The translations under genes were made by a program, and so were the position numbers. 33,838 bases of DNA from a candidate division WOR-3 bacterium (GTDB lineage Bacteria > Hydrothermota > Tepidihabitantia > Tepidihabitantales > Tepidihabitantaceae), in contig JBDRUN010000017.1 in NCBI GenBank assembly GCA_039801365.1, positions 1-33,838 of the forward strand, read 5' to 3'. Under the pieces are notes generated by a model. The model saw nothing but the letters and a program-made list of their open reading frames with translations. It made no database searches and was not told where the DNA came from. Shown here piece after piece: positions 1,784-29,014 of the stretch (the first letter of the stretch is position 1; each line of letters opens with the position of its first letter).

Positions 1784-1805
1784 CCGATGAATTGACGGAG
1801 GGCGT

Positions 1806-2912: not shown

Positions 2913-3540
2913 CCACGTCTTAGTACGTTAGAGAGCACGCCGTCTACCCATGCAACCGTCGCACAGAAAAGGATTGTTTCGAGTACGTAACCAACTTACC
3001 CACAAGCGGTTAGGCGTGGCTCTTCGGCACGAATGTTGCACACTGAATGCGAAACATGAGCAAGTTCTCTACCCCCGGCTCGTGGAAGGTGTTTGTTGGT
3101 GGATTGTTACTCATCTCGTTCGGGTTCGCTTCGAGCGTCGGTATGAAGCCGGTGGAAATCTTGGTCCCGCTTACTGCTGTTGTCGGCTGCCTTGTCCTAT
3201 TGACTTCACTAGCGGGCAGCGGACCGCGTGCTTTCCTGTAGCCAGGTGTCCGACGTCCGGCATCCGGGTCTGTTCTTGAAGTGCACGCTCGCCTGCGCTT
3301 TCCAGATGGCGGCAGACTGCCATACACCACACTTCGAGTGCGAGCCGGTGCCCTGGATACTAAACCCGGCACACCTTTTCTTCCTTACTGCGGCAGCCGG
3401 ATGATCGACATCGAACTGAGGCGGCGAGCAGACTAGCAAACCACAACCGCCGGACAGGTGTCTTCATTCTGGATGACGCGCAGGCCGATGCGGAAAATCT
3501 GACAACCCGGTTTTGGGGTTACCAATAGTCAACAAAAGAC
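2913..3540. other. Mostly non-coding gap
   Basis: Apart from the doubtful small membrane ORF at 3056-3241, I see no gene with a start site and recognisable product. Short frames on both strands overlap each other and have no family features. Confidence 0.5.
3056..3241 (+). CDS. Possible small two-helix membrane protein
   Basis: An open frame of 61 codons (MSKFSTPGSW...) encodes two hydrophobic stretches, about residues 10-27 and 31-52, separated by a short turn, as in small inner-membrane proteins. No convincing ribosome binding site precedes the start and I recognise no family. It sits alone in an otherwise non-coding 670-base gap. The alternating hydrophobic pattern is the only support, so it could be chance. 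Confidence 0.25.
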   Translation: MSKFSTPGSWKVFVGGLLLISFGFASSVGMKPVEILVPLTAVVGCLVLLTSLAGSGPRAFL

Positions 3541-3566
3541 CACCGCCGCCCAGCTGGACGGCGGTG
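3541..3566 (-). terminator. Rho-independent terminator of the CruF-like gene
   Basis: An 8-bp outer stem (CACCGCCG with CGGCGGTG) encloses a self-complementary CCAGCTGG core. Read on the minus strand it lies 19 bases past the stop codon of the carotenoid-synthesis gene and is followed by GTCTTTTGTTG, a T-rich run. Position and direction fit a terminator for that gene. Confidence 0.7.
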
Positions 3567-3584
3567 TCGGTGCCCGGACAGAGG

Positions 3585-4442
3585 TCAAGCCGCCGGAGTC
3601 GGTGCTTCGGCCAAGTGTGGTCTTGCCGCCATACTTCTTGTACGGATGGCGATTGCCAGTGTGGCCAATAGGACTACGGCAATACCAAGCCAGCCGGCGC
3701 CGGTCATGCGGAACCGGAAGCACATTGCGGTCGGGTACAGCATCACCGCCACGAACATCCAGAGTGCGCTGCGCTTCGCCAGGTTTGACTCGGCGAGCCG
3801 CTCAGCATCAGCCGCTGAAGGCTCGACTGCCAGAAAGAAGAGCACCACAAACATCGCCGTCGCATACCAGCCGACAAAACTGGAGAGCGGGATGCCGTGG
3901 TAGAATCCGTACTGACCGAAGCTTACCGCGCTGCGCACAACTGCGAGCGGACCGGCGCTGAGCTGCCACAGGGCCATAATGAACCCGGCGGTCAGGGGCA
4001 TCGCAGCAATGGTGCTGGGCTCGCTGGACTTGGCACGTACCAGGTATGTAGATACGATGAATACGATATAGAGTGTCCCGAACCAGGTGAGTACGACGCT
4101 GAACGGAACGTGGCCAGGCAGCATTAGTCCAACCGCAACCCTGAGGTCACGAACTCGGTGGAACCAATGGCTGCCGAACACCGCGCCGAAGTTAGTGCCC
4201 AGGTACTCGGCCACGTACGGCAGAATTAGGCCGAGCGCCAGGAACCAGAGTGCGCGTCCGGTCCCGAGATACGACAGACTGTGTAGCAGGGCAAAAGCGG
4301 CCAGACAATAGACTGGCATCAGACTAAGCCAGCCCACGGTCGGCCGCACGACTGCGTCAGCTATCATGAAGCCGACCGTCGCTAGACCCGTGAACGCGAT
4401 GCCGAATATGGCCAGGCCAGTGTTCTGGGTAGTGTTTCTCAT
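3585..4442 (-). CDS. Carotenoid biosynthesis membrane protein, CruF-like (DUF422)
   Basis: A 285-residue polytopic membrane protein with about seven to eight hydrophobic segments. 'EYLGTNFGAVFGSHWF' and 'YGFYHGIPLSSFVGWY' match the two conserved blocks of the Caroten_synth (DUF422) family, which includes CruF, a carotenoid 1',2'-hydratase acting on psi end groups (bacterioruberin- or myxol-type pathways). The start at 4442 is chosen because GGAGG stands 5 bases upstream; the frame stays open to 4490 without a better site. The substrate cannot be read from the sequence. No other carotenoid gene (crtB, crtI, cruG) is in the window, so the pathway must be encoded elsewhere or the protein does something else. 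It is divergent from the SpoIID-like gene and ends in a hairpin terminator. Confidence 0.75.
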   Translation of the reverse strand: MRNTTQNTGLAIFGIAFTGLATVGFMIADAVVRPTVGWLSLMPVYCLAAFALLHSLSYLGTGRALWFLALGLILPYVAEYLGTNFGAVFGSHWFHRVRDLRVAVGLMLPGHVPFSVVLTWFGTLYIVFIVSTYLVRAKSSEPSTIAAMPLTAGFIMALWQLSAGPLAVVRSAVSFGQYGFYHGIPLSSFVGWYATAMFVVLFFLAVEPSAADAERLAESNLAKRSALWMFVAVMLYPTAMCFRFRMTGAGWLGIAVVLLATLAIAIRTRSMAARPHLAEAPTPAA

Positions 4443-4649
4443 CAATCCTCCAGTTGGTTTGTCCTTACTGGAAAGGGTGGCAGTTGGCATATGCCCCTGT
4501 ACGGGCCCTCTCGAAACCGCACCTTGATGCCGTTCCTTCCCAAAGCACTACTATTTTACTCGGAATCTGCGCCCGGTCAATGGCAAGAAAACGGAAACGC
4601 GCCGTGCCCCAGCAGTGTCTTGTCCTAAGGCCTGATTTGACCAACCTCA
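4443..4649. promoter_or_regulatory. Divergent intergenic region between CruF-like and SpoIID-like genes
   Basis: About 200 bases separate two divergent start codons, so promoters for both genes should lie here. The minus-strand ribosome binding site GGAGG sits just outside its start at 4442. I could not identify reliable -35/-10 boxes or an operator. Confidence 0.4.
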
Positions 4650-5843
4650 GTGCGTTGGCTAAATTGGGTCGTGAGTCGCGCGGTCCCCTTGGCTGTGCTC
4701 TTGGCCGTTGCGTGTTGTTGCTACACGCCAATTGCGGTGAAATCGGCGGCTACTGCCGTGTCCGCTGACCAGCAGCCGTCTGTCCGAGTCCGACTGAGCG
4801 CGATTACCACTTCTGCAACAGTGTCGTGCGATGCCGAACTGCAGGTGAAGGCTGCCGGCAACGAACGTCGGACGGACAGAGCGTTCGTCGTACTCAGACG
4901 GGTCGGCAACTCGGTAGTGGTCACGGTTGGCAACAATGAATGGCAACGGACCACGGACACGGTCATACTCAAAGGTGTCCGGAATGTGCCGGTCAGGGTG
5001 GGCGGGCAGGCATACCGGGGCATGGTTTTAGCATTCGTTTCCGCCGACGAACTAGTCGTGGTGAATGAAATTGGACTTGAGGACTATCTGTACAGTGTGG
5101 TGCCGTGTGAAATTGGGCCGATAAGACCGGAGACCTTCGAGGCTGTGAAGGCCCAGGCGGTGGCGGCTCGGAGCTTCACTCTCGCCAGGCTCGGAAAACG
5201 CAAGGCCCTTGGTTTCGACTTGTACGATACGTATCTACGGGACCAGGAATACCAGGGGGTTGGACGCGAGACCGAATTGAGCACACGGGCTGTAGTCGAA
5301 ACACGGGGTGAAGTCCTTCTTTTCGACGGCAAGCCAGCCGAGGCGCTGTACCACTGTAACTGCGGCGGCATCACCGCGCAAGGCAGCCAGCCCTATCTGA
5401 AACCGGTACGCGACACACCAGAACACCGGCCGGGCAGACCATTCTGCGCCGACGGAAAGTACCATGAGTGGCAGGCAGAGTTCGAACCGATTCAGTACGA
5501 TACGATACTCACCCGTCTCGTGGGCGTCGGCGCGAAAATCAAACTACGCCGCGTGAAGCTGCAGAAGGATAAGGTTTCGGGTCGAGTACTGAGCCTCATA
5601 CTTGATACCGATAAAGGAAGGTTCAAGGTGTTTGGCACAGACTTCCGCATGGCCTTGGGCCTACGGTCAACCATGTTCGACCTGAAACTGTCGGCCGGCC
5701 GGATGAACGTAACCGGCAGGGGGTGGGGACACGGCTGCGGATTATGTCAGGACGGTGCCATTGAAATGGCGCGGCGCGGTTCGAGCTACCGTCAGATTCT
5801 AGCGCACTACTATCCAGGACTGAAATTGGGCCAGCAATACTAG
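4650..5843 (+). CDS. SpoIID/LytB-domain cell-wall protein
   Basis: A 397-residue exported protein. The N-terminus has a hydrophobic segment (AVPLAVLLAVACCC, residues 11-24) that serves as a signal; AVAC is a weak lipobox. The SpoIID domain covers roughly residues 105-395. It includes 'LEDYLYSVVPCEIGP' with E154 at the position of the catalytic glutamate of SpoIID, 'EAVKAQAVAARSF', 'YHCNCGGIT', and the C-terminal 'GRGWGHGCGLCQDGA...YRQILAHYYPG'. SpoIID is a lytic transglycosylase that cuts glycan strands lacking peptide stems; non-sporulating bacteria have homologues such as the amidase enhancer LytB. The cysteines near 'HCNCGG' recall the zinc site of clostridial SpoIID. The start is a GTG at 4650 with no clear ribosome binding site; GTG at 4671 is an alternative. 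Its job is probably peptidoglycan remodelling. Confidence 0.88.
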   Translation: MRWLNWVVSRAVPLAVLLAVACCCYTPIAVKSAATAVSADQQPSVRVRLSAITTSATVSCDAELQVKAAGNERRTDRAFVVLRRVGNSVVVTVGNNEWQRTTDTVILKGVRNVPVRVGGQAYRGMVLAFVSADELVVVNEIGLEDYLYSVVPCEIGPIRPETFEAVKAQAVAARSFTLARLGKRKALGFDLYDTYLRDQEYQGVGRETELSTRAVVETRGEVLLFDGKPAEALYHCNCGGITAQGSQPYLKPVRDTPEHRPGRPFCADGKYHEWQAEFEPIQYDTILTRLVGVGAKIKLRRVKLQKDKVSGRVLSLILDTDKGRFKVFGTDFRMALGLRSTMFDLKLSAGRMNVTGRGWGHGCGLCQDGAIEMARRGSSYRQILAHYYPGLKLGQQY

Positions 5844-5905
5844 TACGCTGGACAGCGACGGGTTTTGGGACTACGCTGGTCTGTCGTTCGGACAACTCTG
5901 GATTG

Positions 5906-6481
5906 TCAGGTCTTCTCCGGCGGTACGATGTCTGAGTCGGCAATCAGCACCGCGGCTGCACACACCGACGTCCAGAGTCCGTTCTTGTCGCCGATCGCGC
6001 TCTGCGTAACGTTCTGGGTGCGGTAGATTTCTCCTGAAATCTTCCAAGTTTCTTTGCGCTGGTTATAGCTTGTATCCGGGTCGAATTTCACGCCAAGGGT
6101 AGTTGCGAGCATTTGGGCTGCGAGGTCTTCGGCATATTCACCAGCCGGGTCGTCACGCATGCCGAAGGCGTGAAACTCGGACAGGTAACCATGTTTCTCC
6201 GGGTCCTTGGGAATTGCCACGCCGATTGAGGCGGAAATGAGCCGATGAGGTTCGTTGGTAGCGTTGTCACTCATTACTACAAATACAACCTGGCCTGGCT
6301 TGAGCATAGCCAGGCCACGGCGCCGGGAGATAATCTTGCAGTGAGGCGGGAAAATGGACGATACACGGACAAGATTGAATGCTGCGATGCCCGCGTCACG
6401 CAGAGCTGCCTCAAAGCTGGCAAGCTTCTCGCGGTGGCGACCGACGCCGTTGGTGAGAAACACATACTTGGGCGTAATCAT
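5906..6481 (-). CDS. pdaD: Pyruvoyl-dependent arginine decarboxylase
   Basis: This 191-residue protein is a pyruvoyl-dependent arginine decarboxylase: it converts arginine to agmatine and CO2, feeding polyamine synthesis. The proenzyme cleaves itself between two serines to form a small beta chain and an alpha chain that starts with a pyruvoyl group. The cleavage site is 'NLVRVSSIFPP', with cut S41|S42, in the same place as Ser52-Ser53 of the Methanocaldococcus enzyme. Other family blocks are 'TNGVGRHREKLASFEAAL', 'VVMSDNATNEPHRLISASIGVA' and 'GYLSEFHAFG'. The ATG at 6481 is preferred over an upstream TTG at 6502 because GAGAGG precedes it. The gene follows tRNA-Ala on the same strand by about 110 bases. 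Confidence 0.93.
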   Translation of the reverse strand: MITPKYVFLTNGVGRHREKLASFEAALRDAGIAAFNLVRVSSIFPPHCKIISRRRGLAMLKPGQVVFVVMSDNATNEPHRLISASIGVAIPKDPEKHGYLSEFHAFGMRDDPAGEYAEDLAAQMLATTLGVKFDPDTSYNQRKETWKISGEIYRTQNVTQSAIGDKNGLWTSVCAAAVLIADSDIVPPEKT

Positions 6482-6593
6482 GGGATACCTCTCCGACTCC
6501 AAGAACCTGCGAGAAAAAGAGGGAAGGATAGCCGGTCTGGTCCCGCTACTTCCTTACCTTCTGGACTCGCGTTTATGTAGTTTCTTTCCTGAA

Positions 6594-6666
6594 TGGAGCA
6601 GACCGGAGTTGAACCGGCGACCTCCAGAGTGCGATTCTGGCGCTCTCCCATCTGAGCTACTGCCCC
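6594..6666 (-). tRNA. tRNA-Ala (anticodon CGC)
   Basis: The 73-nt minus-strand cloverleaf is complete. Acceptor GGGGCAG pairs with CTGCTCC, including G3:U70, the alanine identity pair. The D arm is GCTC/GAGC, the anticodon arm CCAGA/TCTGG with loop ATCGCAC, and the T arm GCCGG/CCGGT with loop TTCAACT. Discriminator base is A and no 3' CCA is encoded. The anticodon CGC reads the GCG codon. It begins 64 bases past the stop of the cyclophilin-like gene. Confidence 0.95.
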
Positions 6667-6730
6667 GGAAACGATCAAGCGCTACGCTCTCCGCTTCGCG
6701 ACCGGCGAACGGGCAACGGCCCGGGCAGGC

Positions 6731-7162
6731 TCACGGTGTCGCAAATTCAGTGGGCCCGGCCTGATCGGTGGTTTCGGGTTCGACACGGCCCGGCTCCACT
6801 CGGACGACGATACCGTGACGTTCGCGACGAATAAGGTGGAAGTCCTGCCGGTTGCACTCAAACGTGCCGATGACTGTGACCGGACTGGCCGTGACCGGGG
6901 TCGCGTCCGTACTCTTAGGCGTGCGGCCGAAGAAGATGCACAGGTCGGGTCCGTCCGGCCAGTAGGCGATATCGCCGACATTCACCCGGTCAACCGGAGC
7001 CGTATTCTCAGCCTCAAGCCGCACCGGGAAATAAACTTCCTCGCCCCAGGTCTCGCCGATCTCCTCATAAGGCAGAAGCCGCCAGACCCGTTCGGCAAGC
7101 GGCGAATCGTTGAGCATACCGTTGAGCTCAACACCGCCAACTGTAATCTTTATCGGTTTCAC
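6731..7162 (-). CDS. Cyclophilin-like fold protein (DUF369/TM1367 type)
   Basis: A 143-residue protein of the bacterial cyclophilin-like family (PF04126). The typical pattern is clear: 'MKPIKITVGGVELNGML', 'LAERVWRLLPYEEI', 'WGEEVYFPV', 'VNVGDIAYWPDGPDLCIFFGRTP', then 'PVTVIGTF'. The family adopts a cyclophilin-like beta barrel but lacks known prolyl isomerase activity, and its function is not established. The start is a GTG at 7162 without an obvious ribosome binding site. The last 25 residues are charged and look like a non-conserved extension. It is upstream of tRNA-Ala and the arginine decarboxylase on the same strand. Confidence 0.85.
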   Translation of the reverse strand: MKPIKITVGGVELNGMLNDSPLAERVWRLLPYEEIGETWGEEVYFPVRLEAENTAPVDRVNVGDIAYWPDGPDLCIFFGRTPKSTDATPVTASPVTVIGTFECNRQDFHLIRRERHGIVVRVEPGRVEPETTDQAGPTEFATP

Positions 7163-8308
7163 GGGCGGATGGATTGTAGAAAAGTGGCACCGGTTGTCAA
7201 GCCTCCGATTTTCACCTGTGGAACCACAAGGATAATGCCATAGGGTAATGGCACAGGGAAAATGTCACTCTTGATGGACGCGCGACAATTGTAACCCAGC
7301 CGGGTCATGCTCTATCAATACAATTCTGCTCAAGGAGTGTGCGTTGGGTGATTTCGCGCAACTCCTGGGACACAGTGAAATCTTGGGGCCGGATGTGGTG
7401 CTTGCAAGAGCAGACCTTGGTCGGGTCTTTGTGCTTGCGGGTCGCGGAAGCCGGACAATCTCTCTTGACACGCCGCGGATTCGGAGTAGAACTCGCGTGT
7501 GAATATGACACCGGACCGGCTGGCACACCCCGCCAAGTCCTGGGGGTGGTAGAATACTTGTTGTGTTCCGGGAACTGATACCTATCGTGTCCCCAGAACT
7601 CCCTGTAACAGTCCGGTTCTAAGTGCGGCGCATCCGCGGGCAGGGTTCGCAGCACCGCGCGTCGTCACGAACACCGCACCAAGCAATCGGCCAACTTCCG
7701 CCAGTAGGCCCAACCCAAATCTACCACTGACCGCTAAAGTAATCTCAGCACTACCCTGCACCCTCGTCTCCATCCAGCAAATCGTCCGGCATACCGTTTG
7801 CCCGACAATCCAAGGGACGATTCGCCAACCGACCCCAGTACTGAACCGACCAGTAATCCGTGAGTTGAGCCGACGGACAAACCCTCAATTGTATCGCCAT
7901 ACCGACCAAGGAATGAACTAACGAACAAGCCGGCAAGTCAACCCACTGATGTATCGTCAGTTAGTTCCCTGAATAGCCTGTTGATTCACCGGTGGGTTCA
8001 CTCAAGAGACGAACCGACAGGCGACCCAGGGAGTCATTGGGGGAGTCGTTCCCCGGTTCGTGGGACGGATGGTAATCCTAGTGCAGACTCCAGCGGTGGG
8101 CCATGAGTGCTAAGTCATACATTACTGTAGTGTTGCGTTACGTATTTTGCGAAGTTCGTCTTGTGTTTCTTCGTATCCTGCGCCGTTTGCATTGCCATTC
8201 TGAGCGTGTAGAATCATTTCGGCTGGAGTAGGATCGGCCTTGATGAATCTTCTCATTGACACGAGCCTACTGTGGCCAATGGTCGAAAGCGAAAAAAGGA
8301 GGCTACGA
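7163..8308. other. Gene-poor region with decayed repeat
   Basis: More than 1.1 kb without a convincing gene. It contains the degenerate repeat copy at 7464-7618 and a small inverted repeat, TGCCAT/ATGGCA, at 7236-7253. The minus strand of about 7734-8050 has a run of glycine-, serine- and leucine-rich frames interrupted by stops and frame changes, so it may be a decayed gene or just compositionally biased DNA. No start site with ribosome binding sequence was found until 8309. Confidence 0.5.
7464..7618 (-). repeat. Degenerate dispersed repeat, copy A (possible REP-transposase flank)
   Basis: It matches copy B at 8936-9058 in the same orientation: plus-strand CTTGACACGC, then GTGAATA(A)TGA, CCGG..CGGCTGGCA.ACCCC.CC, GTAGAAT and TGTCCCC..AA.TCCC. 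Copy A carries about 20 extra bases near 7565-7590. Read on the minus strand, it contains TGGGGACACGATA, resembling the conserved block often found in front of REP-associated Y1 transposase genes. No intact transposase frame follows. Confidence 0.5.
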
Positions 8309-10216: not shown

Positions 10217-10728
10217 CCATGGTATGGCTCACAGGAGTTTAGAAACTAGGAAACCGCGGTTCACGGAAGATTACCTTGGGAGGACAGGAATAACCACCTG
10301 TTTCCGGAATATCGGGATTTCGGAATGCGATACGTTTTCTGAGCATGTCAGGGCCGTTGGGTTTCCATGTCTTTTGCCGAATGATGAACCATTGAAGAAA
10401 AGGAAACGTTTCCCTTGCCTGGCTGATATCAAGATGAGAGACGACAAGATGGTGCAGATAGTGGAACCGATACTCGACCCTTCGACAAGCTCATGGTAGG
10501 CTCTGCACGCTCGGTTGCAGACGGATATGTCCGAGGCGGACAAGGTAGCCCCGGCGCTATCGTCGCTACCAACAAAGCGATGGATGCGCTGGTAGATAAG
10601 CCGTAGAGGTTGACGGTCGGTATCATTGTTTAGGCCGCCGGTGGTTGAACCGCTAATGCCCAGCGCGGTGGTTCGGCAACCGGGCCTCTATTGTTGGAAA
10701 CGGCTGAATCAAAACAAAGGCGGTGCGT
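10217..10728. other. Gap with no convincing gene
   Basis: A 91-codon frame at 10224-10499 and a short frame from 10494 to 10604 are open but have no ribosome binding site and no recognisable family. CCCTTCGACAAGCTCA at 10478-10493 resembles a short sequence that recurs in intergenic DNA of many bacteria; only one full copy is seen here. The last bases of the window, GTCCTTCGAC, may be the start of another. Confidence 0.4.
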
Positions 10729-11976
10729 ATGAGATGGAGCATTCTGTCCGTGGCTGCGCTGGCGGTACTCGGTGTAGCACGGACCGACCTAAAGCAGCAG
10801 GCTAAGGCAGCGTATGAGCTTGAGCAGTATCCCAATGCCCTGAGGCTCGCTAGGCAGGCGACCAAGGCGAACCCGAAGGACGCCGAGGCGTGGTACCTAT
10901 TGGGACGCTATATGCACTTCCGTTGCTACGATTCCCGGCCGCTCGCTGGCTTTTCGCGGGCAACGTCGGATTCGATACTCGGTTTTCTTGATCGGGCGGT
11001 AAAGCTGGACCCCAAGCTGGGCGACGCATTCTACTTCATCGGATCGGAACACGGTGTGCGCACCCACGAACCTCTGGTCCGTGGCGATGTCGAACAGGCC
11101 CGGGCCGAGCTACGGGCAGCGCGAACCAAAGGCGGCTATCCTGACTGGATGCTTGAGTACTGCCGAAACCTACTGCGGGTGTGCGAGCGGGACGCCATCC
11201 TTTTCGTGATGGGTGATATGCAGGTGAATGGTGTGCGCTACTTGCAGCTTGTGGAAGGCGAGCGGCCAGACGTCACTGCGTTGCCATATCCGCTCCTGGA
11301 CCGGCCGTGGGCCGTTCTGCTTTACAAAGACGGAATTCCCGGCGCACTTCGGTCGGCACCAATGAGCTGGTCCCGGGAGCAGGTAATGGACATGCACCCG
11401 TACCGGTGGCGAACCGATACGGTACGGATACCGGTGCCGATTTCGGCACTTACCGGTATGGGCATCACGGCCCCGGACACGGTTTTCGAATGGCAGGTTG
11501 AACCGGACCTGTCGAACGGCGAACGGCCAATGCTCAGCGCCATCACCGCCGCGGTAATTGACATCGTCGAGGCGAACAATTGGAGCAGACCTCTCTATTT
11601 CGCGCTTTGCCCGCCGGCCGCGACCGCGGGCATCGTCAGCTACCTGCAGTCCTGTGGCCTGGCACAGCGGCTGCTGCCGGTCCGAACCGCGCAGTACGGG
11701 TTAGCACTCAACACCGAAGTCATCAGAAATGTACTTCTTGACCCGGACTCGTATCGCAACCTCCCCAGCGTCCGGCAGCACGACATGCCACGGGTTTCCG
11801 GGGTGCTCGGCATGTACCGCCATGGGCTGATTGAGCTTGCCGCGCATTACGCCGAAACCGGTCGCAAGGCCGCTTGCGACTCGGTTCTTGACCAGATGAC
11901 CGTGTTGTTGCCGGAAAGCATCCTGCCGTTGCAGCCTGAGCTCCGGGCCGCTGTCGAGCGCCTCAGGAGCCGGTAG
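10729..11976 (+). CDS. Exported TPR protein with DUF2723-tail-like domain
   Basis: A 415-residue protein with a short N-terminal signal (SILSVAALAVLGVAR). TPR-like helices follow at about residues 23-60 (AAYELEQYPNALRLARQA, DAEAWYLLGRY) and 75-95. The central part, 'DAILFVMGDMQVNGVRYLQLVEGERPDV' with 'LLDRPWAVLLY', and later 'NNWSRPLYFA', closely recalls the soluble C-terminal region of DUF2723 membrane proteins ('ILFTYGDNDTFPLWYLQ..EGVRPDV', 'NGWKRPIYFA'). In those proteins the region follows a GT-C-like membrane domain; here it stands alone behind TPRs. The role is unknown, perhaps in surface glycan work. The start at 10729 (ATG) is favoured over GTG at 10723; a weak GGCGG precedes. It is convergent with the next gene. 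Confidence 0.72.
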   Translation: MRWSILSVAALAVLGVARTDLKQQAKAAYELEQYPNALRLARQATKANPKDAEAWYLLGRYMHFRCYDSRPLAGFSRATSDSILGFLDRAVKLDPKLGDAFYFIGSEHGVRTHEPLVRGDVEQARAELRAARTKGGYPDWMLEYCRNLLRVCERDAILFVMGDMQVNGVRYLQLVEGERPDVTALPYPLLDRPWAVLLYKDGIPGALRSAPMSWSREQVMDMHPYRWRTDTVRIPVPISALTGMGITAPDTVFEWQVEPDLSNGERPMLSAITAAVIDIVEANNWSRPLYFALCPPAATAGIVSYLQSCGLAQRLLPVRTAQYGLALNTEVIRNVLLDPDSYRNLPSVRQHDMPRVSGVLGMYRHGLIELAAHYAETGRKAACDSVLDQMTVLLPESILPLQPELRAAVERLRSR

Positions 11977-12057: not shown

Positions 12058-13584
12058 CTAGAGTCGCAGGAGCTTTGTGACCTGACTCGGTCCTTTGTCC
12101 GACTCTAGCTCACAGTAGTACACACCGCCGGGAAGCCCGCTCATGTCGCACCTGACTGCGTGCGAGCCTTGGCTCAACTTCCGGTCAATCAGGGTAAACA
12201 TTCTCCGCCCCAGGACATCAGACACATGTAGCCGTACGTGCTGCGGGCCAGGAACCGCGAAACGCACCGTGGCCACATCTCGACATGGGTTCGGATACAC
12301 ATCGAAACGCCCGCGCAATCCGCCCTGAACAGGCGGAGCGTCCTTGATTCCGCTGACCAGACCGTTTGTATCGGCCTTGATGACCCAGAAGTCAGCGTTG
12401 CCCAGAGTTAGGCTATCCCAGGAGTTGGCGTCGCGCCAGCCCGCTATGGCTAGGCCACTGTCTGATGTCAAGATGATGGCGGAAGGGTCGTCGTTCAAAG
12501 GGCCGCCATACCACCGTGTCCAGAGTGTATCGCCAGCATCATCCAGCCGGAGCAGCCACCAGTTGTCATAGCCCATTCCCGGCGGAGCATAGGTCTGGGA
12601 ATAGGCGGTAAGGTAGTAGCCACTGCTACGGCTTTCGATAATACTGGCTCCGCCGTCATACCGGCCCCTGGTGCCGATGGTTCTTGTCCACTGTGTGTCG
12701 GCACGGGCGTCTAGTTTCATGACCCAGATGTCGCGGTTTGGGAATACATCGTTCTGGCTTCGCTGTCCGGCAAGAATCCATCCGCCGGCTCTTGTTCTTT
12801 CAGGTCGGCCGAGCGTCGTCAGACTGTCCTCACGGAATGACATCACCTTTTGCAGGTTGCCGAACGTATCAATCACAAGATAACTGGCAAAGCCCATGTA
12901 TGCCGGAGGAAACGGCCATTCACCAGTGCAACTGAACGCGGTCATCAAGTACCCGCCATCTCCGGTTGCAGTGATTCCGGCTCCCTGATCCGCGTACTGC
13001 AGGTCGTAGGTTCTAGTCCATATTGTATCGCCATTCTGGTCAAGCTTCAGCAGCCAGATGTCCTTGCCACCAATCTGGGTTCCACGGTTCTTCGTATCGC
13101 CCAGAATCAGATATGTGCCGTCCGGGTTCTGAATCATCGCGCCGCCGTTGTCCTCCAGAGTGTCACCGATGGTCTTGTCTGTAAGGATTTCGCCATTCTG
13201 ACTGACTCTTAGAAACCAGACCTGCCTTCCGTATCGGGGACTATACTTGGTACCGGTAAAGACCAGCTCGTTATTGTTGTTCAGGATTACGTCAAAGATG
13301 AAGTCTCCGCCTGCGCCGACGCCCATCGTGCCAACCCGTCTTGTCCAGACCGTGTCACCGAAAGCGTCTATCTTGATAATGTAACCGTCTTTGTCCCAGG
13401 GGATGTTGGACCAGGTTCCTCCACACACTACGAAATTACCGTTGCCTGTTTCCACGATGCCGCCAAACGCGAATTCAGCCCGGTCGGGCATCCCGTACCG
13501 CTTTATCCACGTCAGCGGCTCAGCGGTACAAACCGCGGCCAGCATGAAAACGATGCGGGCAGCTACGTTGAGGACTGGTCTCAT
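12058..13584 (-). CDS. Secreted beta-propeller-like protein with type IX-like sorting tail
   Basis: A 508-residue exported protein with a signal peptide (VAARIVFMLAAVCTAEP). Residues about 30-410 consist of repeats of roughly 50-60 residues of the pattern 'D.W..KLD..GDT.WTR..G', five or so of which are clear, typical of beta-propeller or delta-60-like repeat proteins found as exported proteins in uncultured bacteria. The C-terminal 80 residues form a sorting tail: 'VYPNPCRDVATVRF', 'VSDVLGRRMFTL' and 'LPGGVYYCEL'. In Bacteroidetes such tails direct export by the type IX system and anchoring; here this is inferred from similarity only. The start at 13584 has only a distant GAGGGA in front. It probably acts at the cell surface or is released. 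Confidence 0.82.
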   Translation of the reverse strand: MRPVLNVAARIVFMLAAVCTAEPLTWIKRYGMPDRAEFAFGGIVETGNGNFVVCGGTWSNIPWDKDGYIIKIDAFGDTVWTRRVGTMGVGAGGDFIFDVILNNNNELVFTGTKYSPRYGRQVWFLRVSQNGEILTDKTIGDTLEDNGGAMIQNPDGTYLILGDTKNRGTQIGGKDIWLLKLDQNGDTIWTRTYDLQYADQGAGITATGDGGYLMTAFSCTGEWPFPPAYMGFASYLVIDTFGNLQKVMSFREDSLTTLGRPERTRAGGWILAGQRSQNDVFPNRDIWVMKLDARADTQWTRTIGTRGRYDGGASIIESRSSGYYLTAYSQTYAPPGMGYDNWWLLRLDDAGDTLWTRWYGGPLNDDPSAIILTSDSGLAIAGWRDANSWDSLTLGNADFWVIKADTNGLVSGIKDAPPVQGGLRGRFDVYPNPCRDVATVRFAVPGPQHVRLHVSDVLGRRMFTLIDRKLSQGSHAVRCDMSGLPGGVYYCELESDKGPSQVTKLLRL

Positions 13585-20523: not shown

Positions 20524-20712
20524 GCCGCGCCCAGACCTCACAAAGCCAAGGGGCGGTTTGTCCTGCGCCTGTGGTCATTCGGTCGCGTGCCATTTCAGCG
20601 GGGGAAAGTTGTACTCGTTGCAGGGATTGGAGGACCGACCCAGGCCAGGCGCATTGACACCGGTGCCCGGGGGACTAGTATGTTCTGCCTCTGCAGGGGC
20701 AAAGGAGTAACT

Positions 20713-23700
20713 GTGAAGAGATCGCTGGCAGTGCTGATTGCCGTCTGTCTGCCGCTCGTGGCAGGCACGATGACGCAGACGGTCCGTTTCGACCGGTCCG
20801 ACCTGATCATCTCCAAGGACAATAACTATGATGCCGTGAACATCACCGGGTTTCCGGCGCTCTCGCCACCAGGCGAGCCTTTGCTGCCGCTTGTTGTGCA
20901 GTCGCTTGTTATCCCGTCTGGGGCGATTGCTACTGGTGTCGAACTTCTGACCGTAGAATGGGTCGAGCTGCCCGGGACCTACAATATTGGCCCGGCCCAG
21001 CCCGACGTGATACTGCCCAGACCCGGACACGACGAAAAGCCAAGACTCGTCGGGCCAGACCATTCGGTTTACTCATCGGCCGAGCCTTATCCGGCACAGA
21101 CCCTTCGGCTGCTTGCGTCTGGTACGATGGCCGGATACCGCATCGCCAATGTTGAGCTTCGGCCGGTTCAGTACTCGCCTGCAACCGGCCGGGTATGGCT
21201 GGCAACGAAGCTGACCTTTCGCCTGACATACGCCGAGGGCGAACGAGCTGCGGTCGCGACTGAGCGGCAGCGCAACAGGTTCGGACAGGTAGTCAAACGG
21301 CTTGTTGCGAACCCCGAAGATGTAACCCGCTTCGCGCCTGCGGTGCGGCGCAGCACCACCAGTGTCTTGCCGCCCGGCGACTACGACTACGTTGTCGTGA
21401 CCGAGGCGCCGATGGACACTGTTTTCCAGCGTCTTGCCGACTGGAAGACGCTCAAGGGAGTTCCGGGAAAGGTCGTGCTGATTTCCTGGATAAACGCCAA
21501 CTATACCGGCTACGACCTTCAGGAAAAAATCCGTAATTTCATCAAGGACGCCTATGCGACCTGGGGCACACAGTACGTGCTCCTCGGCGGCTCAGGCGAC
21601 TACGCCAACACTGGCCAGAACATATTTCCGACTCGGATGGCCCAGTACGAAGGTAACGGCGCAGAGCCGTGTGACCTGTACTGGGCTGGCCTAGATGGCA
21701 ACTGGGACGCGAATGGCAACCACACCTACGGCGAGATTCCCGATAACGCAGACATGTACTCAGACGTGTATGTCGGCCGGGCATCAGTGTACACCGTGGC
21801 AATGGCTCAGAACTTTGTCAATAAGACCATCAAGTACGAGCAGAGTCCGCCGACCGGGTTCATCAAGCGGATGCTCCTGCCGACCGCGATTCTCTGGTCG
21901 AGCTACGAGGAGCGGCCGATGGTCGAGTCAATCGCACGTCAGGCTTCCAGCCGTGCGTTCCAGATTGGCAGGCTGTACGAGCGCAACGGCACCCTTTCGC
22001 AGGCCGCGGTCTGCGAGTCCTTGAACCGCGGCTGGGGAATGAGCCATTGGGACGGTCATGGCAGCCCGACCGGAATCTACATGGGATCGACCCCGTACTT
22101 CTCCTCAACCAATGCCCAGGCGATGACCAACGGCGACAAGACCGGTGTGGCGGTGGCAATCGCCTGCGACTGCGCGGCTTGGGACCAGGTGTCCGGCGGC
22201 GACTGCTTGGCCGAGCACATGGTCAACCGCGTTGGCGGCGGGTTCATCGCCACGGTAATGAACACGCGCTACGGTTACGGCGCAATCGGTCCGGGCGGCA
22301 ACTACGTGCCCGGTCCTTCGGAACGGCTCGACACCACGCTCTATGCTGGAGTGTTCTACTACGGCATGCCCGCGACCGGCCAGGCACTGGCATATTCCAA
22401 GGCGACTTGGGCGCCGTACGCGGACTCGCTCTACCAGTACGCGCACCAACGGTTCTGTATCTACGACCTGACACTCATCGGCGACCCTGAGACGCCGCTC
22501 TGGACCGCGGAGCCGACTCCGGTGAACGTCGCCCACTCAGGCGTCATCACCATCGGCAACAACGTACCTTACCCAGTCACGGTCACGACCGGTTTCGCGC
22601 CGGTCTGCTCCGCACTCGTGTGTCTCAAGAAACCGGGCGAGGTTGACGTCAAGGGCCGGACCAATTCCTCAGGCCAGGTCACACTCTTTGTCTCGGCGCT
22701 TACGCCCGGGCCGATGACGATGACCGTCAGTGCTCGGGACCACTTCCCGTTTCTTGACACGGTTCAGGTCATCGCTTCGAACCGCTATGTCTCGCATCTG
22801 CGCTCGTGGGTGCTTGACCCGGCTCCGGGCGGGAACAACGACTCAATCCTGAACCCGGGCGAGACTGTTAACATCCCGACTTGGGTCAAGAACTGGGGAC
22901 AGCAGACCGCAATGTCGGTGACCGCAAAGTTCCGCACTGCTGACCCGAATGCCCAGGTAACGGACTCGGCCCGTAGCTTCGGCAACATCGGGGCTGGCGA
23001 CTCGGCGTTCACCGGCGTGCCCGGGTTCGGCCTGCACGTCAATTCCGGCCTGCCCAATGCCTATTCGGTCGCCTGCTCACTTATCTGCCGGGATGCGAAT
23101 GACTCGGTCTGGGTATCACTCCTCTCTTATCAGGTCGGCACCCCGGTGCTTGAAAAGCGCACGCAGACAGTCGTGGACACTGCCCACGGCGGCAACGGCA
23201 ACGGCCGACTCGACCCGAACGAAACGGTTGACCTCGCGGTCTGGATTGCCAACACCGGACTCGGGCACGGTTACAACTGCCGCGGCGTGCTCAAGTCCGG
23301 CGACTCAAGGCTTATCGTGCTCGACTCGACCGCAAGCTATGGCAGGGTGCGTAAAGGCGACAGTGCAACCAACGCCGGCGACTGGTACACAGTCCGGGCC
23401 CAGGCCGGAATCCCGCCCGAGACGCCGCTTGTCTGCACGCTTCGCCTCTACGCTGACGGCGGGTACTCGGTCGTGCGCACATTCAATATCATCGTCGGCG
23501 AGTTCCGCAACATTGACCCGATACCAGACGGCCCGCGGCTGCCTGCCTTGTACTGGGCCTACGACGACAAGGACACCGGGTACACCCATCACCCGCAGTA
23601 CCAGTGGGTCGAAATCCGAAGCCAGGGCACGCAACTCAACTTCTCCCACAACGATGCGGTCATCACTGTGAACCTGCCCACGGGGTTCGGGCCGGTCAAA

Positions 23701-24483
23701 TACTACGGCCAGCGCTTCACCCAGCTTTCGATTTCCGCGGACGGCTGGATTGTACCCGGCAACTACACGACCACGAACTACACCAATACCGGTCTCCCCT
23801 CGACCGCAGCACCGCCCCGGGCAATCTGCGCCAACTGGGACGACCTGTACCCCGGATACTCAAGCCAGGACTATGCCTATTACTATCATGACGCGGCCAA
23901 TCACCGGTTCGTAGTTGAGTTTGATTCGGTCAAGTACTACGACAACTCGATTCGCGACAAGTTTGAGTTCATCTTCTACGACACGACGCTTGCGGCTGGG
24001 GACGGCAACTCGAGGATTCTCGTCCAATACCGGACTGCCAATGGATACACCTCAAGTACCATCGGGCTTCAGGACGGCACCCAGCAGGTCGGGATTCAGT
24101 GTCTGTACGACGGTTCCTATCACAAAGGCTGCGCTGCGATTGCGGCTGGCCGCGCCGTCCTATACACCACTGACCCGCCAAGCCAAGTCGGACTTTCATC
24201 CGAGCCATGGACTGCGCTCGTTGACGTAAGAGGACTTGCACTATGGCCCAATCCGTGCCTTGGTCGAGCAACGGTGAGCTGGAACGTGCCGATTGCCGGC
24301 AGGGTGGAGCTTGCGGTGTACGACGCGTCGGGCCGCGAAGTCAGCCAGATTGTCAGTGACGAACTGGCCGCGGGCCGCCATACCCGGACTTGGGACGGAC
24401 GTGCGCTCGCGCCGGGCGTGTACTTTGTAAAGCTCGATGCGCCGGGCAGCACGCGACGGCAGAAACTGATACTGACCCGCTAG
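20713..24483 (+). CDS. Gingipain-like C25 cysteine peptidase with type IX-like sorting tail
   Basis: A 1256-residue secreted peptidase of family C25. Order: signal peptide (SLAVLIAVCLPLVAG); a gingipain-type propeptide region to about residue 215; the catalytic domain from 'YDYVVVTEAPMDTVFQRLADW' to about residue 605; CARDB- or Ig-like adhesion-type repeats; a beta-rich domain ('FSHNDAVITVNLPTGFG'); and a C-terminal sorting tail ('LWPNPCLGRATVSW', 'YDASGREVSQ', 'LAPGVYFVKL'). The catalytic dyad is H449 in 'HWDGHGSP' and C485 in 'IACDCAAW' (C487 is also present), 36 residues apart, like the gingipain spacing. Start GTG at 20713 has AAAGGAG upstream, although the frame is open from 20587. It stands alone on its strand between a flavodoxin gene and a convergent asnA. 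The specificity is unknown. Confidence 0.93.
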   Translation: MKRSLAVLIAVCLPLVAGTMTQTVRFDRSDLIISKDNNYDAVNITGFPALSPPGEPLLPLVVQSLVIPSGAIATGVELLTVEWVELPGTYNIGPAQPDVILPRPGHDEKPRLVGPDHSVYSSAEPYPAQTLRLLASGTMAGYRIANVELRPVQYSPATGRVWLATKLTFRLTYAEGERAAVATERQRNRFGQVVKRLVANPEDVTRFAPAVRRSTTSVLPPGDYDYVVVTEAPMDTVFQRLADWKTLKGVPGKVVLISWINANYTGYDLQEKIRNFIKDAYATWGTQYVLLGGSGDYANTGQNIFPTRMAQYEGNGAEPCDLYWAGLDGNWDANGNHTYGEIPDNADMYSDVYVGRASVYTVAMAQNFVNKTIKYEQSPPTGFIKRMLLPTAILWSSYEERPMVESIARQASSRAFQIGRLYERNGTLSQAAVCESLNRGWGMSHWDGHGSPTGIYMGSTPYFSSTNAQAMTNGDKTGVAVAIACDCAAWDQVSGGDCLAEHMVNRVGGGFIATVMNTRYGYGAIGPGGNYVPGPSERLDTTLYAGVFYYGMPATGQALAYSKATWAPYADSLYQYAHQRFCIYDLTLIGDPETPLWTAEPTPVNVAHSGVITIGNNVPYPVTVTTGFAPVCSALVCLKKPGEVDVKGRTNSSGQVTLFVSALTPGPMTMTVSARDHFPFLDTVQVIASNRYVSHLRSWVLDPAPGGNNDSILNPGETVNIPTWVKNWGQQTAMSVTAKFRTADPNAQVTDSARSFGNIGAGDSAFTGVPGFGLHVNSGLPNAYSVACSLICRDANDSVWVSLLSYQVGTPVLEKRTQTVVDTAHGGNGNGRLDPNETVDLAVWIANTGLGHGYNCRGVLKSGDSRLIVLDSTASYGRVRKGDSATNAGDWYTVRAQAGIPPETPLVCTLRLYADGGYSVVRTFNIIVGEFRNIDPIPDGPRLPALYWAYDDKDTGYTHHPQYQWVEIRSQGTQLNFSHNDAVITVNLPTGFGPVKYYGQRFTQLSISADGWIVPGNYTTTNYTNTGLPSTAAPPRAICANWDDLYPGYSSQDYAYYYHDAANHRFVVEFDSVKYYDNSIRDKFEFIFYDTTLAAGDGNSRILVQYRTANGYTSSTIGLQDGTQQVGIQCLYDGSYHKGCAAIAAGRAVLYTTDPPSQVGLSSEPWTALVDVRGLALWPNPCLGRATVSWNVPIAGRVELAVYDASGREVSQIVSDELAAGRHTRTWDGRALAPGVYFVKLDAPGSTRRQKLILTR

Positions 24484-25894: not shown

Positions 25895-26104
25895 CGGGTC
25901 AACTCCTTTGTAGCACCTATTCTTTGGTCTTGAGTCGCGTCTGCGACCCGGACCACGTTGTTTATTCGCGGAATTGCTGCGAGCAGTTGGCCAAGGATAC
26001 TCAGGGCACATCGGCTGTCAAGGTGCCGGCGCCTTATTCAGCGCCCCGCATTTGACAACACGGTTCCGCGTTTCTATGCTCATCGTATGCCAGGAGGTGA
26101 TGTC

Positions 26105-26647
26105 ATGAGTAAGTTCAGCCGCAGCATGATCATCACGGTGCTGACCGTGCTGGTAGCCGTCGGCCTGGCCGCAAAGCTTGAACCGGCAGCAAAGTTCGTG
26201 CACGAGGATGCCAAGGGCAAGCTTACGATAATCGGCAAGGCCGCGGTCGTGCTCACCGGCGACGACCAGTTCGTCAACCGCATAATGGAGGACGTCACGG
26301 CCATCGGTCTGCTTGGCCGCGGCATCAAAGTCGCCTACCCGGATGAGAACAGTTTCGGCAAGTTGCGGCGCGAGCCAGGCAAAGACCCGATGCAGGTCGC
26401 GCGCACGGCCGGCGCCAACGTGCTTCTCACCGGTATGGTCGTTACCGAGCCGGTCTGTCCGTCCGACTGCGGTCGCGAATGTCAGCACCCGTGCCGGAGT
26501 CTGAAGGTGAACATCGCATCGCTTTCGCTCGTTGATGTGCCGCAGGACAAGGTCCTCGTCTGGGCACTGTACGAACCGGACTCAGCGGTAAGCACTTCCC
26601 GGCTGGCAACTGCTTTCGTCGAGCTTTTGGTCGAGAGTCTGAAATAG
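26105..26647 (+). CDS. Exported CsgG-like small protein with CX3CX3CX3C motif
   Basis: A 180-residue protein with an N-terminal signal segment (MIITVLTVLVAVGLAA). The rest looks like a small CsgG/LpoB-type alpha-beta domain: 'VVLTGDDQFVNRIMEDVTAIGLLGRGIKV', 'MQVARTAGANVLLTGMVV', and a closing helix 'SRLATAFVELLVESL'. Residues 119-131 contain four cysteines at exact four-residue spacing (C-PSD-C-GRE-C-QHP-C). The start at 26105 follows a near-perfect AGGAGGTGAT, the strongest ribosome binding site in the window. It is first in a plus-strand run with the LpoB-like, COG3014-like and YcfL-like genes (next start 53 bases on). Function is inferred only by resemblance and context: outer-membrane or periplasmic assembly. 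Confidence 0.75.
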   Translation: MSKFSRSMIITVLTVLVAVGLAAKLEPAAKFVHEDAKGKLTIIGKAAVVLTGDDQFVNRIMEDVTAIGLLGRGIKVAYPDENSFGKLRREPGKDPMQVARTAGANVLLTGMVVTEPVCPSDCGRECQHPCRSLKVNIASLSLVDVPQDKVLVWALYEPDSAVSTSRLATAFVELLVESLK

Positions 26648-26700
26648 GTGGCCGTGACCGTGCGGCCAGTAAGACGTCTAAATGCATCAAAGGAGTCGCA

Positions 26701-27279
26701 ATGAAAAAGGTAATCCGATACAGCCTAGCGCTGGTTGCGTGGTGTCTAGTCGCGGCCTGCGCTTCGTCACACTATGTCCGGCCGGACGAGGTGACCGAGT
26801 GGGACTACACCTATTCGGACACGGACATGAAACTTCTGGCCGAAAAGATGGTGATGTCGCTTTCCGAAGCAGAACTGCCCAAGACCCAAGAAAAGCCTAC
26901 CATAGCGTTCCTGCGCATCGGCAACCGTACCTCTCAGCACGTGGATACGGACGGCATCTCCGAGAAAATAATGGTCAGTTTGGTGAAGCTCGGTCGGTTC
27001 CGGGTCGTCGATCGCGAACTTCTCAAGAAACAGGCACAGGAAATCGCCCTGGTCGAGAACCAGCGGATTGACGTCGAGGGTGCGGTCAAGCTGGGCAACC
27101 TTGTTGGCGCAGACTACTTCCTGACCGGCGACATCATGAGTATTGAGAAGACCTCGGGCGCAACCACGCTTGCCTACTACAAGCTCACGATGCGGCTCGT
27201 AAATGTCAAGACTTCGGTTATCGAGTGGGCCGACGAAAAGGAGCTCAAGAAACGCTCGACCAAGGGGTGGTTCGAGTAG
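26701..27279 (+). CDS. LpoB-family penicillin-binding protein activator lipoprotein
   Basis: A 192-residue lipoprotein. The signal peptide ends in the lipobox VAAC, with C20 the lipidated residue. The mature part matches the LpoB family (PF13036): 'VTEWDYTYSDTDMKLLAEKMVMSL', 'KPTIAFLRIGNRTSQHVDTDGISEKIMVSLVKLGRFRVVD', 'GNLVGADYFLTGDIMSI', 'YKLTMRLVNVKTSVIEWADEKEL.K'. In E. coli LpoB is an outer-membrane lipoprotein that reaches through peptidoglycan and activates PBP1b. AAAGGAG precedes the ATG. It lies 53 bases after the CsgG-like gene and 10 before the next, so co-transcription is very likely. Presence of this protein argues for an outer membrane. Confidence 0.92.
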   Translation: MKKVIRYSLALVAWCLVAACASSHYVRPDEVTEWDYTYSDTDMKLLAEKMVMSLSEAELPKTQEKPTIAFLRIGNRTSQHVDTDGISEKIMVSLVKLGRFRVVDRELLKKQAQEIALVENQRIDVEGAVKLGNLVGADYFLTGDIMSIEKTSGATTLAYYKLTMRLVNVKTSVIEWADEKELKKRSTKGWFE

Positions 27280-27289
27280 AAAAGGAACA

Positions 27290-28534
27290 ATGGGTCCAAG
27301 GACCGACGTCCAAGTGGACGAGAAATCGCGGCACCGGAGTGGCAAGTGTTGGATTATTGCGTCTGCATTCGCGTTCGGGCTGGCCCTGATTACCGCCTGC
27401 GCGCCAAGCGCGTCAACCGTCCCGCCCGGGCCCAGATATTTCTCCAACTTGAGCTACGACAGCGCGGCCGCGAGATTCCGACGTGAAGCAGAGAAACAGT
27501 TCGAGGCCAAGGACATATCCTATCCCCTGAGTCTGCTCAATTGCGCGGTGACCAGTTTCTACGCGGGAAACCTGAAGGAATCCAAGCAGGCGTTCTCTGC
27601 CGCATACAAGATTGACGACGGCAATATCCCGGAGGCGGCCAAATTCTACCAGTGGCTGGTCGTGGACAGTCGCAAGGTGTACCGGTTCACGAAGCGTGAG
27701 CGCGAGCTGGTACACCTGTACCTTGGTCTTTGCTACCTTACCGAGAACAACCTGCCCGAGGCACTGGTTGAATTCAAGAAGCTCCGGCAGATGGACCAGG
27801 ATGCATCAAAACTACCCGTGGTAAACTTTTACATGGGGCTCGTGTACGAGAAGCTGCAGCTGTACGACGACGCGCTTATCGAGTACCGCGGGCTTGCGGA
27901 CATGCCTGGAACCGGCATTGACGCCACCTCGCTCATCAGGCGGGTAGAGATGCTCAAGGCCGGTATGCCCGAGGCAACAAACGAGCTAGTCGTGCACGTT
28001 GACCACCATTCCGAAGACTCTTTCGGCCGAACCGTTGTTTACGCTGACAACAGGCCGGTTGCCGAGCTGCCGCCGTACTCAGACCGGTTCGACGTCCGCC
28101 TGACCGAGGCCGAGGCATCGCGCAAGGCGTTGCAAAAAGCGAGCGCTGAGGCAACCCGCACCGGATTGCGCTGCTGTGGTACGGTCCTGGCCGAGTATCT
28201 GTTTCCAAGGCATGGCGAGGCAATCGGCGATTTGGCCGGCGACCTCGTGCTTGGGGACGAGCGCGCCAATCAGGACAAGCGGGCATGGGGCTACGCCCCC
28301 ACGGCAATCGCAGTTGCCCGTCTAGCCCTACCGTCCGGCACAAACGAAGTCCGACTTGAGTTCTTCGGACCCCAAGGGCTGCTTGGTTCATGCGTGTATC
28401 CTCTGTCCGGCAGGAACCGGCGTGCTGCCCTTGTTACTGGCGGCCGGACAGTAACTTCATCTCATCCGCCAGCTCAGGGGGAGGAACTGTACTTTATAAC
28501 CGCCGGTCTGGCTAAAGAGTTCTACGAATACTAG
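27290..28534 (+). CDS. TPR lipoprotein, COG3014-like
   Basis: A 414-residue lipoprotein; the signal 'WIIASAFAFGLALITAC' ends in an ITAC lipobox. Residues about 50-225 contain TPR-like helices: 'SYPLSLLNCAVTSFYAGNLKESKQAFSAAYKI', 'RELVHLYLGLCYLTENNLPEALVEFKKL' and 'LPVVNFYMGLVYEKLQLYDDALIEYRGL'. The phrase 'LVHLYLGLCYL..NNLPEALVE' and the position between LpoB- and YcfL-like genes resemble COG3014 proteins next to lpoB (ycfM) and ycfL in gammaproteobacteria. Later residues form a mixed domain ending '...EELYFITAGLAKEFYEY'. The start ATG at 27290 has AAGGA upstream; the frame is open farther (27203) inside the previous gene. Function unknown, presumed envelope. Confidence 0.75.
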   Translation: MGPRTDVQVDEKSRHRSGKCWIIASAFAFGLALITACAPSASTVPPGPRYFSNLSYDSAAARFRREAEKQFEAKDISYPLSLLNCAVTSFYAGNLKESKQAFSAAYKIDDGNIPEAAKFYQWLVVDSRKVYRFTKRERELVHLYLGLCYLTENNLPEALVEFKKLRQMDQDASKLPVVNFYMGLVYEKLQLYDDALIEYRGLADMPGTGIDATSLIRRVEMLKAGMPEATNELVVHVDHHSEDSFGRTVVYADNRPVAELPPYSDRFDVRLTEAEASRKALQKASAEATRTGLRCCGTVLAEYLFPRHGEAIGDLAGDLVLGDERANQDKRAWGYAPTAIAVARLALPSGTNEVRLEFFGPQGLLGSCVYPLSGRNRRAALVTGGRTVTSSHPPAQGEELYFITAGLAKEFYEY

Positions 28535-28543
28535 GAGGAGTGT

Positions 28544-29014
28544 ATGAAGACTAAGTCAGAACGCATATTCCAGCAATCTGATGTCAGAACTCCATTCAAG
28601 ATGTTCGCGAAGTTCTGCGTCCTGGGCGCCGTGTCGCTACTGGCGTGCAGTGCCCGCATCAACTCTGTCATTATTGATCGGGATGCTGGAACCAGGCGCT
28701 GGGACATTGACAATCCGTTCCTGGCAAACGACATTAAGATTCTGGATGTCAAGGAAGAGGAGAAGAACGACGCCCTGTTCGTCAGCATCCTGGTCAGGAA
28801 CGGCTGGGGTGTGCGCATCGGCGGGCTGATGAAGGTGCAGTTCTATGACCGCTCCGGCGTTCAGCTCGATGACCCATGGGGCTGGCACCAGATAAACCTC
28901 GAATCATCCCAGGAGGAGTGGTTCAAGTTCATGGCGCCCAAGAAGGCGGACGAAATCAGTCGGATCAAGGTGATGGTCCGAGGTATCAACAAGTACTCTG
29001 GCGCCGGCCGCTAG
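28544..29014 (+). CDS. YcfL-like lipoprotein (DUF1425)
   Basis: A 156-residue lipoprotein with lipobox LLAC ('GAVSLLAC', C35). The mature domain resembles YcfL/DUF1425: 'NPFLANDIKILDVKEEEKNDALFVSILVRNGW', 'LMKVQFYDRSGVQLDDPWGWHQINLES' and a closing 'FMAPKKADEISRIKVMVRG'. YcfL is the neighbour of LpoB in enteric bacteria, with no defined job. The signal peptide is unusually long before the hydrophobic stretch; a second ATG at 28601 would give a normal length but lacks a ribosome binding site, whereas ATG 28544 has AGGAGG nine bases after the previous stop. It is last in the four-gene cassette. Confidence 0.78.
   Translation: MKTKSERIFQQSDVRTPFKMFAKFCVLGAVSLLACSARINSVIIDRDAGTRRWDIDNPFLANDIKILDVKEEEKNDALFVSILVRNGWGVRIGGLMKVQFYDRSGVQLDDPWGWHQINLESSQEEWFKFMAPKKADEISRIKVMVRGINKYSGAGR

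Follow-up and report, generated by a model that had tools for sequence, protein, structure and literature searches.

The window, a stretch of 33,838 nucleotides, carries a four-gene cassette (g1 to g4) whose protein families are already catalogued and which is a variant of a known cluster. Sequence comparison indicates that the broad unit is a pair formed by LpoB and a tetratricopeptide-repeat (TPR) lipoprotein, and that the lipoprotein trio of the window is one version of that pair. DUF1425 is a third partner only in the WOR-3 lineage of the window and in gammaproteobacteria, its place elsewhere often being taken by LPP20, and g1 is an exported, conserved new fourth member added to the known cluster. 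What merits follow-up is the history of LpoB.

Gene layout and protein families

The four genes are co-directional, with intergenic gaps of 53, 10 and 9 bp, and a purine-rich, Shine-Dalgarno-like stretch lies 5' of each. The features are as follows:

26052..26080, plus strand: possible promoter, TTGACA-17-TATGCT, ending 25 bases before g1; a consensus match only, of which about one is expected by chance in the region
26105-26647, plus strand: g1, 180 aa, exported protein, signal peptide without a lipobox (judged by eye)
26701-27279, plus strand: g2, 192 aa, LpoB-family lipoprotein, lipobox VAAC
27290-28534, plus strand: g3, 414 aa, COG3014-type TPR lipoprotein, lipobox ITAC
28544-29014, plus strand: g4, 156 aa, DUF1425/YcfL-like lipoprotein, lipobox LLAC

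The gene coordinates and spacing given in a preliminary description of this DNA were reproduced, and the three lipoboxes that it had read are present, their cysteine being invariant across the aligned g3 and g4 families and almost so across the g2 family. A codon-level comparison with the related genome G120 yielded pN values of 0.12-0.30 against a pS of about 0.70 for g1 to g4, indicating that these are real genes under purifying selection. The neighbouring genes lie on the opposite strand and encode AsnA on the upstream side and a BNR-repeat protein on the downstream side. Elsewhere in the window, positions 20587-24483 encode a Peptidase family C25 (gingipain-type) protein with a propeptide and a C-terminal Por_Secre_tail sorting domain, and positions 12058-13584 (minus strand) encode another Por_Secre_tail protein, a hint of type IX-like secretion signals in WOR-3.

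The assignment of g2 to LpoB, already proposed in that description, was borne out by a match to PF13036 (E 9e-32, 110.4 bits, cut-off 22.3) and by matches of the g2 family profile to the LpoB structures 4q6l, 4q6z and 2mii; against the NCBIfam model TIGR02722, g2 scores 109.6 bits, just below the equivalog cut-off of 110.55. Its VAAC lipobox is kept in relatives. For g4, the score against PF07233 (E 5e-5, 23.6 bits) lies under the Pfam gathering score of 28.3, and the protein is therefore called DUF1425-like. The g4 family profile matches Aeromonas YcfL (7e-4) and PDB entry 3o0l (E 0.0028), which we take to be a DUF1425 protein, in agreement with the earlier reading of the product starting at 28544 as DUF1425/YcfL-like.

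Pfam matches of g3 are confined to TPR models (TPR_2, 8e-7). Its AlphaFold model (pLDDT 78.9) comprises N-terminal TPR helices and C-terminal strands with a helical hairpin; the TPR part matches solved TPR structures in the PDB, and a PDB search of the model returned no solved match for the C-terminal domain. The g3 profile built from the GTDB family of the window (f1) recovers an Aeromonas open reading frame beside ycfL-lpoB at 1.4e-12, a broad g3 profile recovers it at 1.5e-54, and in hhalign the Aeromonas protein and the g3 family align at E 5e-37. The product starting at 27290 had been called COG3014-like, and it is indeed homologous to this Aeromonas lipoprotein. Lipoproteins of this type go by the name COG3014, and the identity given here rests on the Aeromonas homology; COG3014 is named in no paper of the literature library searched.

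The searches made found the g1 family only in f1. The protein has no Pfam, PHROG or PDB match and nothing significant in NCBIfam, and its AlphaFold model, built from four sequences only, has a pLDDT of 37. A C-terminal stretch (GANvLlTG...LVDVPQDKvLvW) vaguely resembles LpoB. The g1 family profile shows no significant similarity by hhalign to either CsgG-like (E 0.42) or LpoB (E 0.05) profiles, whereas the same method relates the CsgG-like and LpoB profiles to each other at E 2e-10. Of the notion of g1 as a fourth, exported CsgG-like partner, the export stands, and the protein is conserved; the CsgG-like label is not supported by these profile comparisons.

Linkage within WOR-3 and across phyla

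The order g1-g2-g3-g4 recurs in eight other f1 genomes (G104, G105, G107, G108, G110, G111, G112 and G120). In a further f1 genome (G119), g2-g3-g4 is present on a contig that begins inside lpoB, so that g1 is not visible, and a genome from another family of the phylum (G132) carries g2-g3-g4 near a contig start. In families f18, f19 and f30 of the phylum, a g3-like gene comes after LpoB, with an LPP20 lipoprotein next to it in f30. Such sharing of cassette order among relatives is far beyond chance. Alongside its window-type cassette, G120 holds a second, different cluster of LpoB-like and DUF1425 genes, plus three lipoprotein-sized genes (contig 34, positions 501-4474; locus L074).

For the wider survey, 84,980 species genomes were scanned with LpoB as the only bait. 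This gave at least 463 loci, of which the best 80, not a random sample, were analysed. They cover WOR-3 (Caldifarciminota), Cloacimonadota, Elusimicrobiota, Bacteroidota, Balneolota, Rhodothermota, Ignavibacteriota, Zixibacteria, Myxococcota, Thermodesulfobacteriota and Kiritimatiellota. Across about ten phyla, a g3 homologue adjoins lpoB on the same strand in 77 of these best 80 loci. Contig ends truncate two of the remaining three (L104 and L141); the third (L124) is a true exception. The latter is an intact locus (10616-11913), about 2 kb downstream of which a frame resembles, by eye, the start of a class A penicillin-binding protein (PBP). Six Elusimicrobiota loci (L091, L097, L103, L116, L118 and L135) have two consecutive g3-like open reading frames after lpoB.

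The third position is far more variable. LPP20 (PF02169) occurs near lpoB in 28 of the best 80 loci and DUF1425 in only four, all of the window type; PF07233 is absent genome-wide from nine genomes that carry surveyed loci from other groups. The preliminary description had inferred that lpoB, ycfL and COG3014 genes kept their linkage far outside Proteobacteria. This holds for the window, its f1 relatives and G132, where g4 was recovered by profile and g3 by homology, and the linkage is not unique to this contig. Its further reading of the trio as an ancient module stands for the pair of LpoB and TPR lipoprotein, which is old and widespread, but not for DUF1425 as a wide member.

In a tree of LpoB and g3, the lineage of the window is well separated from the remaining WOR-3 copies and groups with Aeromonas (SH-aLRT 99), the one further carrier of the trio included; a single clade of all WOR-3 copies was rejected (p-AU 4e-49). 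Both are long branches, and for that reason neither a shared origin nor a transfer is argued from the grouping, which may serve as a lead only.

A putative envelope complex and its alternatives

We give about an even chance to the reading that the four genes form one operon for a lipoprotein complex anchored in the outer membrane and facing the peptidoglycan, with LpoB and g3 as its core and with a route of action other than that of E. coli. The four genes would be co-transcribed, the three lipoproteins would most likely be anchored in the inner leaflet of that membrane, and the globular domain of LpoB would dock on the TPR arm of g3, with g4 and the exported g1 as lineage-specific partners. 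Such a complex would couple the outer membrane to envelope growth, but not, as in E. coli, through an LpoB on a long tether that extends to PBP1B and its UB2H domain. The layout is operon-like, the proteins carry export and lipidation signals and are conserved, and the lipoproteins are homologous to a gammaproteobacterial trio and include a pair of wide distribution; co-location by itself is no proof of an LpoB-g3 complex.

The pair is read as an outer-membrane complex rather than as an activator of the E. coli type because UB2H is scarce, the LpoB tether is shorter and the genome is diderm (five Omp85 matches). The window genome (95.6% complete) encodes two class A PBPs (contigs 114 and 66) with transglycosylase and transpeptidase domains only; neither has a detectable UB2H, the sole UB2H match of the genome being Mfd. 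Among 40 LpoB genomes of many phyla, a UB2H match of any kind was found in 14. Eight of these matches were fetched, seven being Mfd by motif and one a class A PBP, while the other six come from frames as long as Mfd (993-1246 residues); a recognised UB2H PBP is thus present in one of the 40. The genome of that PBP, Elusimicrobia RBG_16_66_12 (L166), lies outside gammaproteobacteria and also carries the LpoB-g3 pair. The tether, from the lipid-bearing cysteine to a conserved asparagine, spans 55 residues in the window and 90 in E. coli, the median being 63, and it is below the E. coli length in nearly all measurable loci.

These data weigh on the canonical alternative, in which g2 would activate a PBP1-type synthase in the manner of E. 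coli LpoB, with g3 and g4 as modulators, like the TPR proteins CpoB and LpoP elsewhere. The LpoB family match and lipobox of g2, the two class A PBPs of the window genome and the Elusimicrobia PBP speak for it, as does the regulation of class A PBPs by TPR lipoproteins in other bacteria (PMC7267771). However, E. coli LpoB requires the UB2H of PBP1B, whose deletion abolishes LpoB cross-linking (PMC3060616), whereas neither PBP of the window genome has a recognised UB2H, 39 of the 40 LpoB genomes are without a recognised UB2H PBP, the window tether is 35 residues shorter, and no PBP gene lies within or beside the cassette. We therefore regard this alternative as unlikely, and the sequences do not support E. 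coli-style docking of LpoB on PBP1B UB2H in the window genome, although its PBPs might bind LpoB through a site outside the Pfam UB2H model. The peptidoglycan-synthesis control suggested earlier is unsupported in this genome by way of the known LpoB-UB2H route, though it may act by another. Aeromonas hydrophila deleted for lpoB forms less biofilm, adheres less and is less resistant to peroxide and predation (PMC5861188), as would suit a general envelope role; this phenotype does not separate the hypotheses.

Gene neighbourhoods in f1 hint at a larger envelope machine. In G107, G108, G110, G111 and G112 the cassette lies directly 3' of genes for three lipoproteins, one CsgG-like, one of about 330 aa and one with FlgT_N, and in four of these five an ABC exporter with FtsX-type permeases comes after it; this linkage is confined to two genera (g4 and g5 in our genus labelling). 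The g1 to g4 products could be accessories of an outer-membrane ring or export assembly resembling FlgO/FlgP/FlgT or CsgG, here non-flagellar. The CsgG-like, LpoB and FlgT profiles are related, FlgO, FlgP and FlgT form the H-ring in Vibrio (PMC7990780), and flagellar rod proteins are absent from the f1 genomes searched; the triad in the window genome and these relatives is in itself a non-flagellar FlgT-type triad. Yet in the window genome (contig 21, positions 5181-8164 of locus L185) and in three other f1 genomes the triad and the cassette are on different contigs, and the examined loci from outside f1 have the LpoB-g3 pair but no triad, which leaves this possibility with little probability. 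A role in lipoprotein trafficking, in which the cassette would act together with the products encoded 3' of it in the two genera (a LolD-like ATPase, FtsX-type permeases and a LolA-like protein), is very improbable: the gene order in L075-L078 agrees with it, and a LolA-like gene was identified in one exporter locus (L076; PF17131, 1.5e-53), but the exporter linkage is absent from the window and was not seen in the loci of other families, and such exporters are common neighbours generally.

An outer-membrane complex with LpoB and g3 at its core, the reading preferred here, also bears on the age of LpoB. The paper that described it, applying stringent cut-offs, regarded LpoB and UB2H as recent gammaproteobacterial or enterobacterial inventions (PMC3060616); the occurrence of the pair in about ten phyla implies that the LpoB family is much older than that view. 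With a UB2H PBP in only one of 40 LpoB genomes, the job of LpoB in E. coli is probably not its original one. It is conceivable, though we hold this more tentatively than the complex itself, that LpoB and the TPR lipoprotein constitute an old diderm envelope machine nearly always without UB2H, that PBP1B activation was a later re-use, and that the TPR partner was lost from the enterobacterial locus. The nearly constant TPR companion gives the well-studied LpoB a definite partner and an ancestral role that can be tested.

Comparison with known systems

Like Vibrio with its FlgO/FlgP/FlgT, five relatives of the window have FlgT_N and CsgG/LpoB-related lipoproteins, here beside the cassette; unlike in Vibrio, flagellar rod genes are absent, and the cassette proteins themselves are not Flg proteins. 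The clusters of LpoB, COG3014-type lipoprotein and LPP20 in Cloacimonadota, Elusimicrobiota, Myxococcota and the WOR-3 family f30 share with the window the succession of LpoB and TPR lipoprotein, but have LPP20 in third place, with no DUF1425 found.

The gammaproteobacterial comparison comprises E. coli K-12 and one Aeromonas chromosome. The ycfL-lpoB neighbourhood was already known (PMC3130732). In the E. coli operon hinT-ycfL-lpoB-thiK (L033), the DUF1425 and LpoB lipoproteins are adjacent as in the window, but in the order ycfL-lpoB and with no g3 homologue beside them, and E. coli LpoB differs in its long tether and its UB2H partner. The Aeromonas caviae record (NZ_AP026896.1, 4.9 Mb) is filed as plasmid pKAM479_3 but, judged by its size, looks like a chromosome. 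Its trio (L163) consists of a g3 homologue, a DUF1425 protein (PF07233, 4e-27) and LpoB (PF13036, 3e-52); it is without g1 and in the order g3-g4-g2 instead of the g2-g3-g4 of the window, but all three lipoprotein families are adjacent on the same strand, and the window-family profiles match each of them.
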